Part shown: in pieces, positions 108 through 7,248 of the stretch
How the letters are laid out: each line of letters opens with the position of its first letter
Numbering within the stretch: position 1 is the first letter of the stretch
Assembly (NCBI GenBank): GCA_003978805.1
Contig: QNYI01000112.1
Location: forward strand, 1-10,363
Direction of reading: 5' to 3'
Length of the DNA stretch: 10,363 nucleotides
From: Desulfurobacterium sp.
GTDB lineage: Bacteria; Aquificota; Aquificia; Desulfurobacteriales; Desulfurobacteriaceae
Notes under the pieces: model-generated
Seen by the model: the letters and a program-made list of their open reading frames with translations, nothing else
What the model was told of the DNA's origin: nothing
Database searches by the model: none
Position numbers and translations under genes: made by a program

Positions 108-773
108 ATGGCTCTTTCCCCCTTCCTCAAACTTGACATTCCTATTACATTTAAGGATCATCCGGGGGTTCAGTCGGCAGTTCTTTACACAGACATCAAT
201 CTATGCAACCTCAACTGTTTTCAGTGCCACAATAGATACGCCTATAGTGGCAAAGAAGAGAAATTCACCTACGAGGAGCTAAGAGAAAAGCTTTCAATGT
301 TAAAGCTCCTCGGAGTTGAGCTTATAATCGTTTCCGGAGGTGAGCCGACGCTTGAGGAAAACCTTGAAGAAGGTCTGAGGTTCATAAAGGAGCTGGGATT
401 CCCCGTAAGGGTTGACACGAACGGAACAAACCCGGAAGTCGTAGAAAGACTGATTGAGAAAAGGTTGGTAGACGGATTTGCCGTTGACGTGAAGATTCCC
501 CTTAAAGGTGAGTACACCCCTTCAGAGCTCCAACGCTTTAAGAGAGTTCTATTTTCGGATGATGGTGTCCCTGACGAGGCAGTATACGAATATGCCAATA
601 GACTAAGGATTACAATAAACACGATAAAAAGATACTCCCTGCCCTTCACACTCTTTAGGACTGTCACCTATCCCCTCCTCACCGAAGAGGACAGAACACT
701 CATCTCGGAAGAGTTAAAATCTTTACCCCACCAGTTTAACCCTTTCTACTCTGTGGAGGAGGTAGATGAATAA
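108..773 (+). CDS. nrdG: Anaerobic ribonucleotide reductase activating protein (radical SAM)
   Basis: A 221-residue radical SAM activase that would reductively cleave S-adenosylmethionine and put the glycyl radical on class III ribonucleotide reductase. The cluster motif CX3CX2C is C33, C37, C40 (CNLNCFQC), coordinating a [4Fe-4S] cluster. A GGE SAM-binding motif is at 77-79, followed by VDTNGT at 102-107, typical of the family. The ATG at 108 has AAGGTG four bases upstream, and an in-frame TAA at 87-89 rules out a much longer start. It overlaps nrdD by 8 bases (ATGAATAA), so translation is probably coupled. By length and motif layout it resembles the NrdG2/TIGR02495 type. Assignment to NrdD rather than another glycyl radical enzyme is supported by the adjacent gene. 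Cytoplasmic. Confidence 0.92.
   Translation: MALSPFLKLDIPITFKDHPGVQSAVLYTDINLCNLNCFQCHNRYAYSGKEEKFTYEELREKLSMLKLLGVELIIVSGGEPTLEENLEEGLRFIKELGFPVRVDTNGTNPEVVERLIEKRLVDGFAVDVKIPLKGEYTPSELQRFKRVLFSDDGVPDEAVYEYANRLRITINTIKRYSLPFTLFRTVTYPLLTEEDRTLISEELKSLPHQFNPFYSVEEVDE
755..762 (+). promoter_or_regulatory. Shine-Dalgarno of nrdD inside the end of nrdG
   Basis: GGAGGAGG lies three bases before the ATG at 766, within the last codons of nrdG. This supports ATG 766 as the nrdD start and coupled translation of activase and reductase. Confidence 0.6.
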
Positions 774-3546
774 GTACTTTAAGCTGATAGAGCTTTTCAT
801 TGACAACGATGACATCTCCCGTAACAATGCCAACTTCGTAAGGGGTATTCCCGTCCTTGAGCACGTTGTAGTTGGCGAAATAATGAAGGATTACCTCTTT
901 GACGAGGTATATAAAGGTCTTCCGGTAAGAATTCACCACGAGGAAGGTTGGTCATACCACCACCAAACATATAGGCTTTCAGCCTACTGTATTGGCTTAT
1001 CAGCTAAAGACATTGCCTTTCATGGTCTCCAAAGCAACGCAAAGAACGAAAGGAAAGCAGCTCCTCCAAAAAGGCTGGAAACCCTCTTTATGCAGTGTGC
1101 AAACCTTATATGCCTTGTAGCTCAGGAAGTTTCCGGAGCAACCTCTTTAAACGACCTTTCAACAGTTGCCGCCGGATACCTCTACTACTTAGAAAAGGAG
1201 GGCAGGAAGAGCTACTCAGACTACGAGCTTGAAAACCTCTGGCAGGAGTTCCTCTACAACATTAACCTTCCCTTTAGGAGTGGAAACTCCCCCTTCTCAA
1301 ACATTACATTGGACTTCGGGAAGCCAAACAGTAGACTTAAGTACGAACCGGTCGTTTACGCGGGGAAACTCTTAAACATCACCTACAGTCAGATTCCATC
1401 CAACTACTTTGACAGGATAAACATCGCCTTTATAAAGGCAATGAGGAAAGGGGACGCAGACGGTAACCCATTTACATTCCCTCTCATAACTGTAAACATC
1501 ACAGAGGACTTTGACAGGAATAACCCTGCTTGGAAGCTCCTCCTCAAAGAAAGCGAGTATTTTGGTGGATTTTACGTTCAAAACTACCTGAGAGAACCTT
1601 TTGAAAAGCCTTCCATTTATAAGCAGAAAAACCCGTACATAAAACCCTTTGATGAAGGGATGATTTACTCTAACTGCTGTCTCGTTCCAGAAACAGAGCT
1701 CTTTGTTTACATCAAAGGAAAAGAACACCCAGAGTGGCTAACTTTACAGGAAATCAAGGAAAGGTTCGCAAAAAAGGTTATCGCCGAGGGGAGCTCCGAA
1801 AAGTGGTGGGAAGTAGAAGGCATCTTCGTCCCTTCCGTGAATCCCCAAACGGGCAAGCTTGAAAAGAAAAGAGTAACTAAGCTCTTAGAAGTTCGCTCAA
1901 AGAAGGAAGTAAGAATCAGGTTCAGGAACGGCTTTGAGATTGTCTGCGACCCGACTCACAGGGTAGCTGTATTCTCACCTGAAGAGAACAGAATAACGTG
2001 GAAACCTGCCTGTGAAGTTAAGCCCGGAGATTTTGGCCTTACCGTCAAGAAGCCGTTGTTTGAAACCAAGTCGTACGCCAAACTATCAGACGGAACTGAG
2101 CTAAATGAAGAACTTGCATGGTTCTTTGGATACTTCTACGCAGAAGGTTGCTTTATAAAGGATTATCGCAACCGTACCAAGCTAAACGGAATCGTGCTTA
2201 CTGCCGGTGTAAACGAAAGGGAAAAACTTGAAAGGGCAAAAGAGACGGCCTTTAAGTACTTTGGCAACTTTATCTCCTCTGCGAAAATCTACACTAAGAA
2301 GTGGCAAGGAAAGGAGAGCTCCTTACAGCTCTGGATATACGGAAGACGTTTTGCAGAATTTCTCGTCAAGAACGGAATCGTCAAGTACGGAAAACTACCA
2401 CCTGTCTTAAAAACGTCTCCAAGGTCTGTAGTTGAATCCTTCCTAAAAGGCTTTGTTGACGGAGACGGTTACAGGAGAGGGAAACATACAGAGATTCACA
2501 TAAACGACGAGCCCTTAGTAAAAGAACTCTCCTCCCTCCTCTGGATTCACGGAATCAAACATACTCTAAGGATAAGAAAAGACTCACAGACACTGAAGAT
2601 TTCAAAACCCACAAAGTCCTCTTGCTACTCACTCGTTCCGACTACCCTCATTGAAGAAAAGGCTGTAGTTACTGCTTCCGGCAACAGAAGCTACATTAAA
2701 ACTCCAACGGTATCTTGGGACTTCGTTAAAAAGTACGGATTGACAAATGAAAAGCTTGAGGATTACGAAAGCTGGGATGTTGAAATCGTTAAAATTGAAT
2801 CTGTTGAGGAGAAAGTTTTAGAAGAACCTAAACAATTCCTTGACATAGAAGTTGAAGATAACGAGACATTTGTCCTTGCGAACGGAATCCTTAGCTTTAA
2901 CTGCCGTATGCTGTTCAACATCTCACAGGTTGAGGCAGTTACAGGCTCAAACCCATTCCACTCTGGAAGCGGAGTTGGAGGAATCGGCGTATACGCCATC
3001 AATATGAACAGGCTCTTATTCCTTGCAAAAGACGACTTTGAGTTCTTAAAGAGTATGATTGACTACCTAATGGACGTCGGAGCGAGAGCTCTCCAGAGGA
3101 AGAGAGAGTGGCTAAAGAAGCACTGGAATGACCTTTTCCCATACCTATCCTTCTACCAGAAAGACGACAGATCACTATTTAACATCTTCTCCGTAGTCGG
3201 CGTCCACGAAGGAATGATAAACGCAGGCTTTAAAGGTGGCCTATTTAACGACGAGGCCAAGGAGTACGCCCATAGAATTGCCCAGTACCTTTACACGAAA
3301 CTTCAGGAGTTTATGGAGAGGGACAAAGTCCTCTACTCCCTTGAGTATGCCCCGAGCGAAAACGCCGCCTGCAGGATGGCAGAGAAAGACCTCCGGTTTG
3401 CAAAAGCGTTAGCAGACGTCCTAAACGGAGAAAGGGACTACAAGATTTCAAAAGACCCTTACTTAAACCTCTTCATAAAGGAGGCGATCGTTAAATTTGG
3501 CGATAAGATTTTTGAGCTTGTGGAGGTCGGAAATGGAGAGCATTAA
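766..3546 (+). CDS. nrdD: Class III (anaerobic) ribonucleoside-triphosphate reductase, main barrel part, with intein
   Basis: A 926-residue precursor holding most of the oxygen-sensitive reductase that makes deoxyribonucleotides. N-extein 1-304, intein 305-712, C-extein 713-926; the spliced product is 518 residues. C75 in SAYCIGLS fits the first active-site Cys (T4 NrdD C79). The spliced NCCRM loop (C304, then C713) fits the radical cysteine loop. GVGGIGVYAINMNRL after it and APSENAACRMAEKD near the end are typical NrdD segments. There is no N-terminal ATP-cone, so dATP shut-off by that domain is not expected. The reading frame ends before the last barrel strands, zinc site and radical glycine, which are supplied by the next gene in another frame (14-base overlap). 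Calling it a split NrdD is strong; that the parts assemble is inferred. Confidence 0.92.
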   Translation: MNKYFKLIELFIDNDDISRNNANFVRGIPVLEHVVVGEIMKDYLFDEVYKGLPVRIHHEEGWSYHHQTYRLSAYCIGLSAKDIAFHGLQSNAKNERKAAPPKRLETLFMQCANLICLVAQEVSGATSLNDLSTVAAGYLYYLEKEGRKSYSDYELENLWQEFLYNINLPFRSGNSPFSNITLDFGKPNSRLKYEPVVYAGKLLNITYSQIPSNYFDRINIAFIKAMRKGDADGNPFTFPLITVNITEDFDRNNPAWKLLLKESEYFGGFYVQNYLREPFEKPSIYKQKNPYIKPFDEGMIYSNCCLVPETELFVYIKGKEHPEWLTLQEIKERFAKKVIAEGSSEKWWEVEGIFVPSVNPQTGKLEKKRVTKLLEVRSKKEVRIRFRNGFEIVCDPTHRVAVFSPEENRITWKPACEVKPGDFGLTVKKPLFETKSYAKLSDGTELNEELAWFFGYFYAEGCFIKDYRNRTKLNGIVLTAGVNEREKLERAKETAFKYFGNFISSAKIYTKKWQGKESSLQLWIYGRRFAEFLVKNGIVKYGKLPPVLKTSPRSVVESFLKGFVDGDGYRRGKHTEIHINDEPLVKELSSLLWIHGIKHTLRIRKDSQTLKISKPTKSSCYSLVPTTLIEEKAVVTASGNRSYIKTPTVSWDFVKKYGLTNEKLEDYESWDVEIVKIESVEEKVLEEPKQFLDIEVEDNETFVLANGILSFNCRMLFNISQVEAVTGSNPFHSGSGVGGIGVYAINMNRLLFLAKDDFEFLKSMIDYLMDVGARALQRKREWLKKHWNDLFPYLSFYQKDDRSLFNIFSVVGVHEGMINAGFKGGLFNDEAKEYAHRIAQYLYTKLQEFMERDKVLYSLEYAPSENAACRMAEKDLRFAKALADVLNGERDYKISKDPYLNLFIKEAIVKFGDKIFELVEVGNGEH
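1678..2901 (+). mobile_element. Intein with LAGLIDADG homing endonuclease inside NrdD
   Basis: A 408-residue in-frame insertion, residues 305-712. Block A begins with C305 (CLVPETELF). Block B carries H398 in CDPTHRV, with Asp where Thr is usual three residues before the His. Two LAGLIDADG dodecapeptides are present: LAWFFGYFYAEGC at 450-462 (acidic E460) and FLKGFVDGDG at 559-568 (acidic D567), so the endonuclease looks intact. The C-terminal block is FLDIEVEDNETFVLANG followed by ILSFN, ending in N712, with C713 as the +1 nucleophile. The penultimate residue is Phe instead of the usual His. Insertion is between the two cysteines of the conserved NCCR loop, a typical choice of a highly conserved active site. 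Boundaries are set by Cys1 and Asn-Cys and by the resumption of NrdD sequence. Confidence 0.93.
3522..3527 (+). promoter_or_regulatory. Shine-Dalgarno of the separate glycyl-radical gene
   Basis: GGAGGT sits five bases before ATG 3533, inside the last codons of nrdD. The good match and spacing argue that the downstream frame is translated by its own initiation, not that it is a recent accidental frameshift product. Confidence 0.7.
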
Positions 3547-4075
3547 GAGGACAAAAAGGGTAAAACCAAGGATGTTCGTTAACGGCGACCCGGCATCCGG
3601 AAGGGTATTTCTAACCTCCGGGTTTCAAGCTCCGTTTCAGGAAGGAGACCTCCTAAAGCAGATAGACGTAAACTCTCACTTCCAGTCTTATGCTACCGGC
3701 GGTAGCATTATGCACCTTTTCACCGCCGAAGAGATGAAGCCCGAGGAACAGGAAAGGCTCATATTTAACATCATCAAGAACTTCCCGATACAGTACCTTA
3801 CAAAGACGCCTTTCTTAACTACGTGTAACAGCTGCGGCTACAAGATGGTTGGTAGGAAGACGGCATGCCAAAAGTGCGGTTCAGAGGACGTAACCCTGTG
3901 GTCAAGACCGATAGGCTACTTCAGGCCGGTAATGAGAGGAAAGATATCAAAGGACTTTAAGAGCGCAGAATACCTTTTTTGGCTTTCCGGCCGAATAGAA
4001 GACTTTGCCACGAGAAAAGAGGTTACCAAGAAGGACGTTGAAGAGATAATCAACGAGCTTTCCTCCATTACTTAA
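3533..4075 (+). CDS. Stand-alone C-terminal glycyl-radical and zinc-site subunit of class III ribonucleotide reductase
   Basis: A 180-residue protein equal to the missing C-terminal part of NrdD. The segment SYATGGSIMHLF (52-63) matches the ATGG segment near the end of the NrdD barrel. Four cysteines in two CX2C pairs (C98, C101, C112, C115) form the zinc ribbon. RPIGYFRPV follows, with G128 (codon 3914-3916) as the expected radical glycine made by NrdG. Some 52 residues follow the glycine, somewhat longer than the roughly 30 usual in NrdD. An upstream in-frame ATG at 3497 exists, but ATG 3533 has the good ribosome site GGAGGT at 3522-3527. It overlaps nrdD by 14 bases in the +1 frame. It probably docks on the main NrdD part, much as GrcA (YfiD) supplies a glycyl-radical domain to pyruvate formate-lyase. 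Association is inferred. Confidence 0.88.
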   Translation: MESIKRTKRVKPRMFVNGDPASGRVFLTSGFQAPFQEGDLLKQIDVNSHFQSYATGGSIMHLFTAEEMKPEEQERLIFNIIKNFPIQYLTKTPFLTTCNSCGYKMVGRKTACQKCGSEDVTLWSRPIGYFRPVMRGKISKDFKSAEYLFWLSGRIEDFATRKEVTKKDVEEIINELSSIT

Positions 4076-4102
4076 GGAGTGTTAAAATTATGTAACAACT
4101 CC
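4076..4102 (+). other. Short inverted repeat between the reductase genes and the Csd6-like gene
   Basis: GGAGTGTT pairs with AACAACTCC (8 bp, one bulged A) around a 10-base AT-rich loop. It starts immediately after the stop codon at 4073-4075. No T tract follows on the plus strand, so it is not a classical terminator; it could stabilise mRNA ends or be chance. Confidence 0.3.
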
Positions 4103-4118
4103 AAGAACGGAGCGCTTG

Positions 4119-5021
4119 ATGGGAAAAAGTTTTTTCCTATTGCTCCTTTTTATCTCTATCTTTAACGTTAAATCTTTTGCTTTCCAAGAGGTTGTTTCTA
4201 ACGTTTTTACTTTGCCTCGGAACTCTGTCGCGATCCTTGTAGACAAAACCAAAGAGGTTCTCTACATAGTAAAGATAAATAAAGGTCTCCCCCAAATAGT
4301 TGCAAAGTTCCCCTGCATAACGGGAAAACGGCCGGGAGACAAGCTTGAAGAAGGAGACCTCAGAACTCCGGAAGGTATCTACTTTCCCCTCTACTGGAAG
4401 AGTGGACTTCCACCTATGTACGGCATAGGCGCTTACCCGCTAAACTACCCTAACCTCCTTGACAGGAAGGTTTTAAAACGCGATGGACACGGCATCTGGA
4501 TACACGGAACGGATAACCCAAACCGTCCTCCTCACAGTACTAACGGGTGCATCGTCCTAAAAAACGAGTATTTAGAAAAGCTTAGAAAGTTCATAAAACC
4601 GAAGGTCACCCCCGTTGTCATTGTTTCAGACCTTTCTTTCGCCGATAAAGAGGAGTACTTGAAAGAGAAGGAATCCATCCTCAACTTCGTTCTTAGGTGG
4701 AAGGAAGCTTGGGAAAACACGCCCCGCAACATCAGCGACTACCTTAACCTATACTCGGAAAACTTCGTTTGGAAAAGGGGTGGATATAAAGAGTGGGTAA
4801 AGTACAAGAGGAGGGTAACCCGGTACAAGAGGTGGATAAAGATAAAGATTTCCGACATAGCTATTACCAAGGACGGTAGGCTCCTTCAATTTGGTAATAT
4901 TTACGTAGTTAGCCTGAAACTTGACTATCGCTCAAACAACTTTTCATCTAAGGGTAGAAAACTCCTCTACGTTATAAAAGAGGGTGGGCAGTGGAAAATC
5001 TTGGGAGAAGAGAATTTATAG
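4119..5021 (+). CDS. Exported YkuD-fold L,D-transpeptidase/L,D-carboxypeptidase, Csd6-like
   Basis: A 300-residue periplasmic peptidoglycan enzyme. A signal peptide is visible: short MGKS n-region, hydrophobic core to about residue 17, likely cleavage after SFA (about 21). The YkuD catalytic region has H129 (IHGT) and C144 (STNGC), with the spacing expected of the Cys-His site. The residue two after the Cys is Val, where transpeptidases usually have Arg (GCIR). The tail from about 185 (RWKEAWENTPRNISDYLNLY onwards) looks like the NTF2-like domain of Helicobacter pylori Csd6, which acts as an L,D-carboxypeptidase shortening tetrapeptides to tripeptides. ATG 4119 is chosen because GGAG at 4109-4112 is six bases upstream; a TTG at 4116 is less well spaced. 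The last 31 bases overlap the next gene. Transpeptidase versus carboxypeptidase activity cannot be settled from sequence. Confidence 0.87.
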   Translation: MGKSFFLLLLFISIFNVKSFAFQEVVSNVFTLPRNSVAILVDKTKEVLYIVKINKGLPQIVAKFPCITGKRPGDKLEEGDLRTPEGIYFPLYWKSGLPPMYGIGAYPLNYPNLLDRKVLKRDGHGIWIHGTDNPNRPPHSTNGCIVLKNEYLEKLRKFIKPKVTPVVIVSDLSFADKEEYLKEKESILNFVLRWKEAWENTPRNISDYLNLYSENFVWKRGGYKEWVKYKRRVTRYKRWIKIKISDIAITKDGRLLQFGNIYVVSLKLDYRSNNFSSKGRKLLYVIKEGGQWKILGEENL

Positions 5022-6686: not shown

Positions 6687-7248
6687 TCTTTCCCCTTTTC
6701 CACTTCTCTATGTAGATGGCCAAAATAGGAATGGACGCAGGCCTTATCCCTTCAAGCCTTGCAGCCTGACCAAGTGTTAAAGGCCTCATCTCCTTTAGTT
6801 TCTGCCTTTCCTCCGTTGAGATGGGGACTTTATCGTAGTCAAAGTCTTCGGGAATTTTCACGTTTTCAAGTTTCCTGAACTTCTTTACCTCCTCAAGCTG
6901 GCGCTTTATGTAGCCTTCGTACTTTACTTCTATCTCTACTTCCTCTAAAACCTCCTTTAGCAACCCATCGTCCTCTAACCGGAACTCCGGTAGGAGCTCC
7001 AACAACCTACTAAGCGGAACTTCTGGCCTCCTGAGAACCTCATAGGCACTTTTTGTCTCCTTTAAAGGCGTTGAACCACAGGCCTCTAAGATGGGGTTTA
7101 CCTCTTGAGGCTTTAACTTAGCTTCCTTGAGCCTATCAATAAAGACCTTAACCGTTTCATACTTTTTCTTTACCCTTTCGTACTGCTCCCTCGTCAAAAG
7201 ACCAAATTTGTAGCCGTACTCTGCAAGTCTATAGTCGGCGTTATCGTA
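6676..7248 (-). pseudogene. mnmG: C-terminal part of MnmG, out of frame with the N-terminal part
   Basis: Read on the minus strand from 7248, this frame begins [19 protein letters not shown], exactly the sequence that should follow AEYRLLL in MnmG. It runs to the conserved C-terminal helical domain (YEGYIKRQ, then LGQAARLEGIRPASI), which contacts tRNA and MnmE. A TAG at 7251-7249 blocks the frame just upstream. The first possible start (TTG at 7197) has no visible ribosome site, so it is unlikely to be an independent gene. Joined to the upstream part the protein would be about 630 residues, the normal MnmG length. No internal stops or decay are seen in about 190 codons, so the break is recent, a sequence error, or bypassed by frameshifting. 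Confidence 0.85.

Follow-up and report, generated by a model that had tools for sequence, protein, structure and literature searches.

Gene fission in the class III ribonucleotide reductase of the Desulfurobacteriaceae: a probable two-subunit enzyme with the radical glycine on the smaller chain

The gene nrdD, for the class III ribonucleotide reductase, is split in a 10,363-nucleotide (nt) stretch of Desulfurobacterium sp. DNA, hereafter the window, which is one entire contig (QNYI01000112.1; G000:C32) of a draft genome that is 62% complete; the split is real and fixed across the family Desulfurobacteriaceae. An old and genuine gene fission has very probably made the class III reductase of this family a two-subunit enzyme. 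The gene arrangement points most likely to an obligate pair of subunits, with the radical on a small subunit that is co-translated with the large one.

The large part of nrdD (766..3546, + strand), delimited by its open reading frame (ORF) and by a match to PF13597, encodes a precursor of 926 amino acids (aa), 518 aa when spliced, and ends with the stop codon TAA at 3544-3546. The Pfam profile NRDD (PF13597) matches it in two stretches (186.6 bits), the best of which covers profile positions 2-240, and in the whole-genome search the match ends at position 429: the catalytic cysteine region is present, and the radical glycine and zinc ribbon are absent. The remainder is found in the small part, a putative glycyl-radical/zinc-ribbon subunit of 180 aa (3533..4075, + strand), which matches NRDD at positions 437-549 of 562 (80.7 bits). 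Both NRDD matches exceed the curated cut-off of 26.2, and each half scores under the cut-offs of the full-length NrdD models in NCBIfam. The ATG of the small part (3533-3535) lies in the +1 frame relative to nrdD, giving an overlap of 14 nt; its stop codon ends at 4075, and a Shine-Dalgarno (SD)-like GGAGGT (3522..3527, + strand) lies within the last large-part codons, 5 bases 5' of the ATG. The presumed zinc ribbon, C98-x2-C101 ... C112-x2-C115 (3824..3877, + strand), and the presumed radical glycine G128 in RPIGYFRPV (codon 3914..3916, + strand) are invariant in alignment A2, where the four cysteines and the glycine are unchanged across 28 small subunits. In addition to the radical domain, the small part holds the conserved VFLTSGF...ATGG region, so the large part falls short of a complete barrel.

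Reading of the sequence confirmed the original prediction, made from the letters of the window, that the nrdD frame ends before the ATGG strand, the zinc ribbon, and the radical glycine, and that an overlapping +1 frame follows with its own ATG and GGAGGT at 5-base spacing. The start that it gave for the small part, 3497, marks only where a TTG first occurs in the open frame; the likely start codon is ATG 3533. Its core reading, a class III reductase divided between a barrel protein and a detached protein with the glycyl radical and zinc site, is supported, with the qualification that the large part does not complete the barrel. Its sum of 518 + 180 residues for one full NrdD comes near, but the total of 698 exceeds the intact relative L065 (668 aa) by 30, and the two new termini combined are longer than the linker of intact NrdD proteins.

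The small protein was searched for in 61 genomes, of which 43 matched. The window's family is represented by 22 genomes, and the matches in 21 of these all lie in short open frames of 176-224 codons from stop to stop, with one of 105 codons cut by a contig end; in the remaining genome (G014) the large part runs up to the contig end. Beyond the family, the best matches share 41-47% identity and fall within continuous frames 666-678 in length. Short frames outside the family were seen in a wider survey of the phylum (below), 303-402 in length in G074 and G089, and also in G027. A profile search covering the 24 genomes of the order detected a continuous NrdD in none of its 22 family members. The same split recurs in related genomes, as originally predicted, and the continuous gene in close relatives that had been named as the counterevidence is seen in none of them. 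The split is present in a single-contig genome (G003) and in a named protein of Desulfurobacterium thermolithotrophum (P0009, 177 aa); public records label such small proteins, P0009 included, simply as anaerobic ribonucleoside-triphosphate reductase. A CRM cysteine motif occurs at the extein junction site in all 21 loci and aligns to the CCR of Thermotoga maritima NrdD, one of whose two cysteines we take to be the radical bearer. The zinc-ribbon pattern and RPIGYFRPV are each found in 20 of the 21 loci, the remaining one being cut by a contig end.

These genes are accompanied by an nrdG match, which lies immediately 5' of the large part in every one of the 22 family loci that were read. The nrdG-like radical S-adenosylmethionine (SAM) activase of the window (108..773, + strand) overlaps the nrdD start by 8 nt and matches Radical_SAM (PF04055, 58.2 bits) and NrdG2 (TIGR02495, 109.2 bits, under the curated cut-off of 131.15).

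We propose that the large subunit supplies most of the barrel and the cysteine that becomes the thiyl radical. A small subunit of about 175 aa would supply the rest, from the VFLTSGF...ATGG region through the zinc ribbon and the radical glycine to the C-terminal tail. Expressed from overlapping or adjacent genes, the small one being started from its own ribosome site, the two subunits would join, presumably in stoichiometric assembly, into one NrdD-shaped body. NrdG would load the radical onto the small-subunit glycine, from which it would cross the subunit interface to the large-subunit cysteine during turnover; the assembly would be obligate rather than exchangeable.

The strongest rival, although we consider it unlikely, is that the small protein acts as an exchangeable radical cartridge, a fresh copy replacing one cleaved by oxygen at the glycine, so that the large part need not be remade. 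The analogy is with YfiD/GrcA and Y06I of phage T4, small glycine-bearing spare parts for pyruvate formate-lyase that are activated by the radical SAM enzyme of their partner, as given in the accessible text of PMC8683613, and the small protein would be the same kind of part as YfiD. YfiD, however, supplements a complete enzyme, whereas in each family genome one small-gene copy was found, adjoining the large part in 21 loci, which fits stoichiometric co-assembly; no spare copy of the small part was found in the family genomes.

More favorable to such a cartridge are detached glycine segments elsewhere in the Aquificota, where a wider survey of 136 phylum genomes with a divergent small part gave matches in 68. 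In a genome of the sister family (G022, 95% complete), an NrdD of another subfamily ends before the glycine motif (L061, L062:1558-1713, L063), and profile positions 531-560 are found in a 51-aa ORF carrying CEVYARVVGYHRP, on a different contig from nrdD and directly before an activase gene; no PF02867 (class I/II reductase) match was found in this genome. Two further homologues of the 51-aa glycine ORF exist. A second sister-family genome (G023, 64% complete) encodes an NrdD without the glycine, and no ORF of the 51-aa type was found in it. In genus g17, a 703-aa NrdD ends at profile position 530-533 (G043 and G051; L077:1677-3960 and L078:2978-5246), and an overlapping ORF of 54-61 aa, located between nrdD and nrdG, holds the radical glycine; the third g17 genome (G057) gave no NrdD match. 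G043 additionally encodes an intact NrdD belonging to the other subfamily; class I/II matches occur in G043 as well as in G051.

The cuts in the sister family and g17 fall just before the glycine motif, a different point from the cut in the window's family, and the tree places their NrdDs in a different subfamily; the glycine segment was therefore detached at least twice. A common origin for the two lineages that have short glycine ORFs could not be rejected (p 0.38), and the sister-family row of the tree has a long branch and an unsure placement, so we claim at least two detachments and not three. Detachment at two cut points in two NrdD subfamilies also speaks for a cartridge, and suggests that the glycine segment is a modular domain and not an inseparable part of the barrel. 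One could extend this to the phylum and suppose that the Aquificota repeatedly freed the NrdD radical segment (about 175 aa, and 51-61 aa in two other lineages) as a swappable cartridge loaded by NrdG; we consider this unlikely, but if true, the freed radical segments would form a natural spare-part system for ribonucleotide reduction. A separate observation concerns the single-contig genome G029 (L072:3176-3439), where an 87-aa C-terminal NrdD piece with the zinc region and glycine occupies a 90-codon frame and PF13597 found no large part anywhere; this piece may be a remnant or a free protein.

The split is also carried by a phage. In the contig IMGVR_UViG_3300026512_000234 (L069:142-3885), the gene order is large part, nrdG, small part, followed downstream by genes with matches to tail-fibre assembly and structural proteins; the position of the activase between the halves is a further point for the cartridge. 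Searches of the phage and plasmid collections matched 5 and 8 records, respectively. The features under the matches are reductases or activases, apart from one unannotated record, and every phage match covers less than 80% of the query. No relative turned up in viral scans that used P0108, P0046, and P0147 as queries, and a viral match of 25% identity (L070) was set aside, lying in a continuous 715-aa NrdD. Sequences from unknown hosts (P0147, P0164, P0044-P0046, and P0108) are possible further splits; they include divergent large parts of 525 aa and small parts of 167-178 aa. The same set includes a 478-aa NrdD, on four contigs, that ends near the same cut point and stands near archaeal sequences in the match list. 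The full-size split P0147/P0164 clusters with intact NrdDs in the tree (100/98), and a single clade of all full-size splits (the family with P0147/P0164) is weakly rejected by the approximately unbiased (AU) test (p 0.026), for a group that was named after the tree had been seen.

The junctions of the 21 family loci are diverse. In 14 the two genes overlap by 11-29 nt in the +1 frame and in one they are separated by a 1-nt gap; the four loci of genus g7 have an in-frame stop between the halves (3-6 nt), and in genus g5 the halves stand apart, by 61 nt at one locus and by 337 nt at the other. Two short hydrophobic ORFs are encoded in the 337-nt spacer (L044, G005; oriented positions about 3970-4306), and the 61-nt spacer of G010 retains the apparent end of the second. 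All 21 loci have an SD-like motif ahead of the small gene; for comparison, the motif occurs at 16 of 274 internal ATGs and in 6.5% of a set of 10,500 random windows. This count is not independent, the motif having been one criterion in choosing the start. With that reservation, it agrees with the expectation of a ribosome site conserved among relatives, and the expectation of a conserved overlap holds in part, +1 overlaps being found in the 14 loci and other junctions differing. These overlaps and the nearby SD-like motif are what a programmed +1 frameshift yielding one fused NrdD could draw on, but we regard it as highly improbable: a frameshift does not account for the four loci with in-frame stops, the two with spacers, the 1-nt gap, or the phage with a whole gene between the halves. 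The in-frame-stop, spacer, and phage arrangements therefore exclude a general frameshift mechanism, which we reject in favor of two separately translated genes.

Beyond the intein site, the large part has a ratio of nonsynonymous to synonymous substitution rates (dN/dS) of 0.012-0.076 in 7 of 8 pairs; the ratio in the small part is 0.013-0.060 in 6 of 8. The remaining pairs are saturated. By these ratios, both halves are under strong purifying selection. In all four genomes of genus g7 (85-99% complete) no match was found to PF02867, for the class I/II large subunit, or to TIGR02505; the split enzyme is therefore the only reductase seen there, and from this gene content it is probably essential in the genus. 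A decaying gene with nonfunctional pieces is even less probable than a frameshift: against it stand the purifying selection on both halves, the kept motif residues, the retention throughout the family, its place as the sole reductase found in g7, and its carriage by a phage. A model of the read-through chain, with the halves joined, folds as one NrdD and has confidence below 50 only at the junction. The small part modeled alone is mediocre (predicted local distance difference test 77.5, predicted template modeling [TM] score 0.62; TM to NrdD chains 0.38-0.47 among the best rows) and would lend weak support to an NrdD fold.

Several points weigh against a two-subunit enzyme. The composite model is a single read-through chain, so the closeness of its halves is imposed; several synonymous distances are above 1 and some are saturated; and the finding of no other reductase in g7 comes from profile searches in genomes 85-99% complete. 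In addition, class I/II (PF02867) matches are present in 18 of the 22 genomes of the family, so NrdD need not be essential there, and a dispensable NrdD is also what decay would call for.

Sequencing or assembly error can be dismissed as the source of the nrdD split, although errors probably occur in this draft, since the same split is found in 21 assemblies including the single contig of G003, and in the named D. thermolithotrophum protein; nor is a misread base at 3530-3546 responsible, because the break recurs with other spacing and frame in other assemblies. The nrdD break is recurrent among relatives, in contrast to a break in mnmG on the same contig (6676-8569, minus strand), which is common to no relative. 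This gene is broken into 442 + 173 aa around 7200-7243; in 18 of the 21 relatives compared it is a single frame of 631-642 aa, with frames of 548 in G013 and 423 at a contig end in G018, and no match in G010. To judge by this comparison, the mnmG break is probably an error or a private mutation of this assembly.

The large part of the window is itself interrupted by an intein with a LAGLIDADG domain (1678..2901, + strand; 408 aa; PF14890, PF14528), located at residues 305-712 between exteins at 766-1677 and 2902-3543. Of the intein profiles, TIGR01443 scores above its cut-off and TIGR01445 below. The intein is inserted directly before C713 of the CCR motif, and splicing therefore presumably precedes enzyme function in the window and the four relatives that have an intein at this site; none was found there in 17 of the 22 family loci. 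Two large-part inteins, after about residue 75 and at the catalytic cysteine, are present in G017 and G018 (L056, L057), and in phage L069 the site occupied by the LAGLIDADG-type intein of the window holds an intein with an HNH domain. A split intein that rejoins the halves was considered and rejected: the intein detected by profile lies within the large part, and no intein piece was recognized by eye in the large-part tail or the small-part head.

No description of an NrdD with its glycine on a separate, conserved chain was found in searches of an open-access library. Among divided reductases, the phage in which mobE splits the gene into nrdA-a and nrdA-b is reportedly Aeh1. That split, the three-piece nrdD of phiAS4, and the nrdD of Lactococcus phage 949 are among the interrupted reductase genes of phages, of which nrdD is the commonest (6 cases), in the accessible text of PMC3653736. 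There the interruptions, found in individual phages, are ascribed to homing endonucleases, introns, or inteins, or the fragmentation is left unexplained; they are not a radical-domain separation fixed across a family. YfiD duplicates the C-terminus of a complete enzyme, whereas the large part here carries no radical glycine itself and a single small copy was found; no complete NrdD to which the small part could be extra was found in the 22 family genomes, in which other glycyl radical enzymes were not searched for. Class II reductases are not known to store a protein radical that could pass to another chain, and they use adenosylcobalamin. The split class II enzyme NrdJa/NrdJb is known from Pseudomonas aeruginosa (accessible text of PMC9669993).

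A separate glycine protein would allow the radical part to be loaded, mutated, labeled, or swapped independently, and would offer a natural system for studying the docking of a radical-bearing part. It would make testable how NrdG recognizes its target and whether activation requires the domain to swing out of the barrel. It would do the same for spare parts of glycyl radical enzymes besides pyruvate formate-lyase, a possibility raised in the accessible text of PMC8683613, where the only validated spare parts are YfiD/GrcA and Y06I, for pyruvate formate-lyase. In comparison with class III reductases, the family enzyme has the NRDD profile, the cysteine of the CCR motif, the zinc site and glycine (on the separate chain), and the NrdG activase, but the whole catalytic protein is on one chain in 0 of 22 family genomes. 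The solved NrdDs, of T4, Thermotoga maritima, Prevotella copri, and Streptococcus thermophilus (five distinct sequences found), are single chains that carry the stored radical and the catalytic cysteine together; unlike these, the NrdD of the Desulfurobacteriaceae consists of two chains with longer, new termini.

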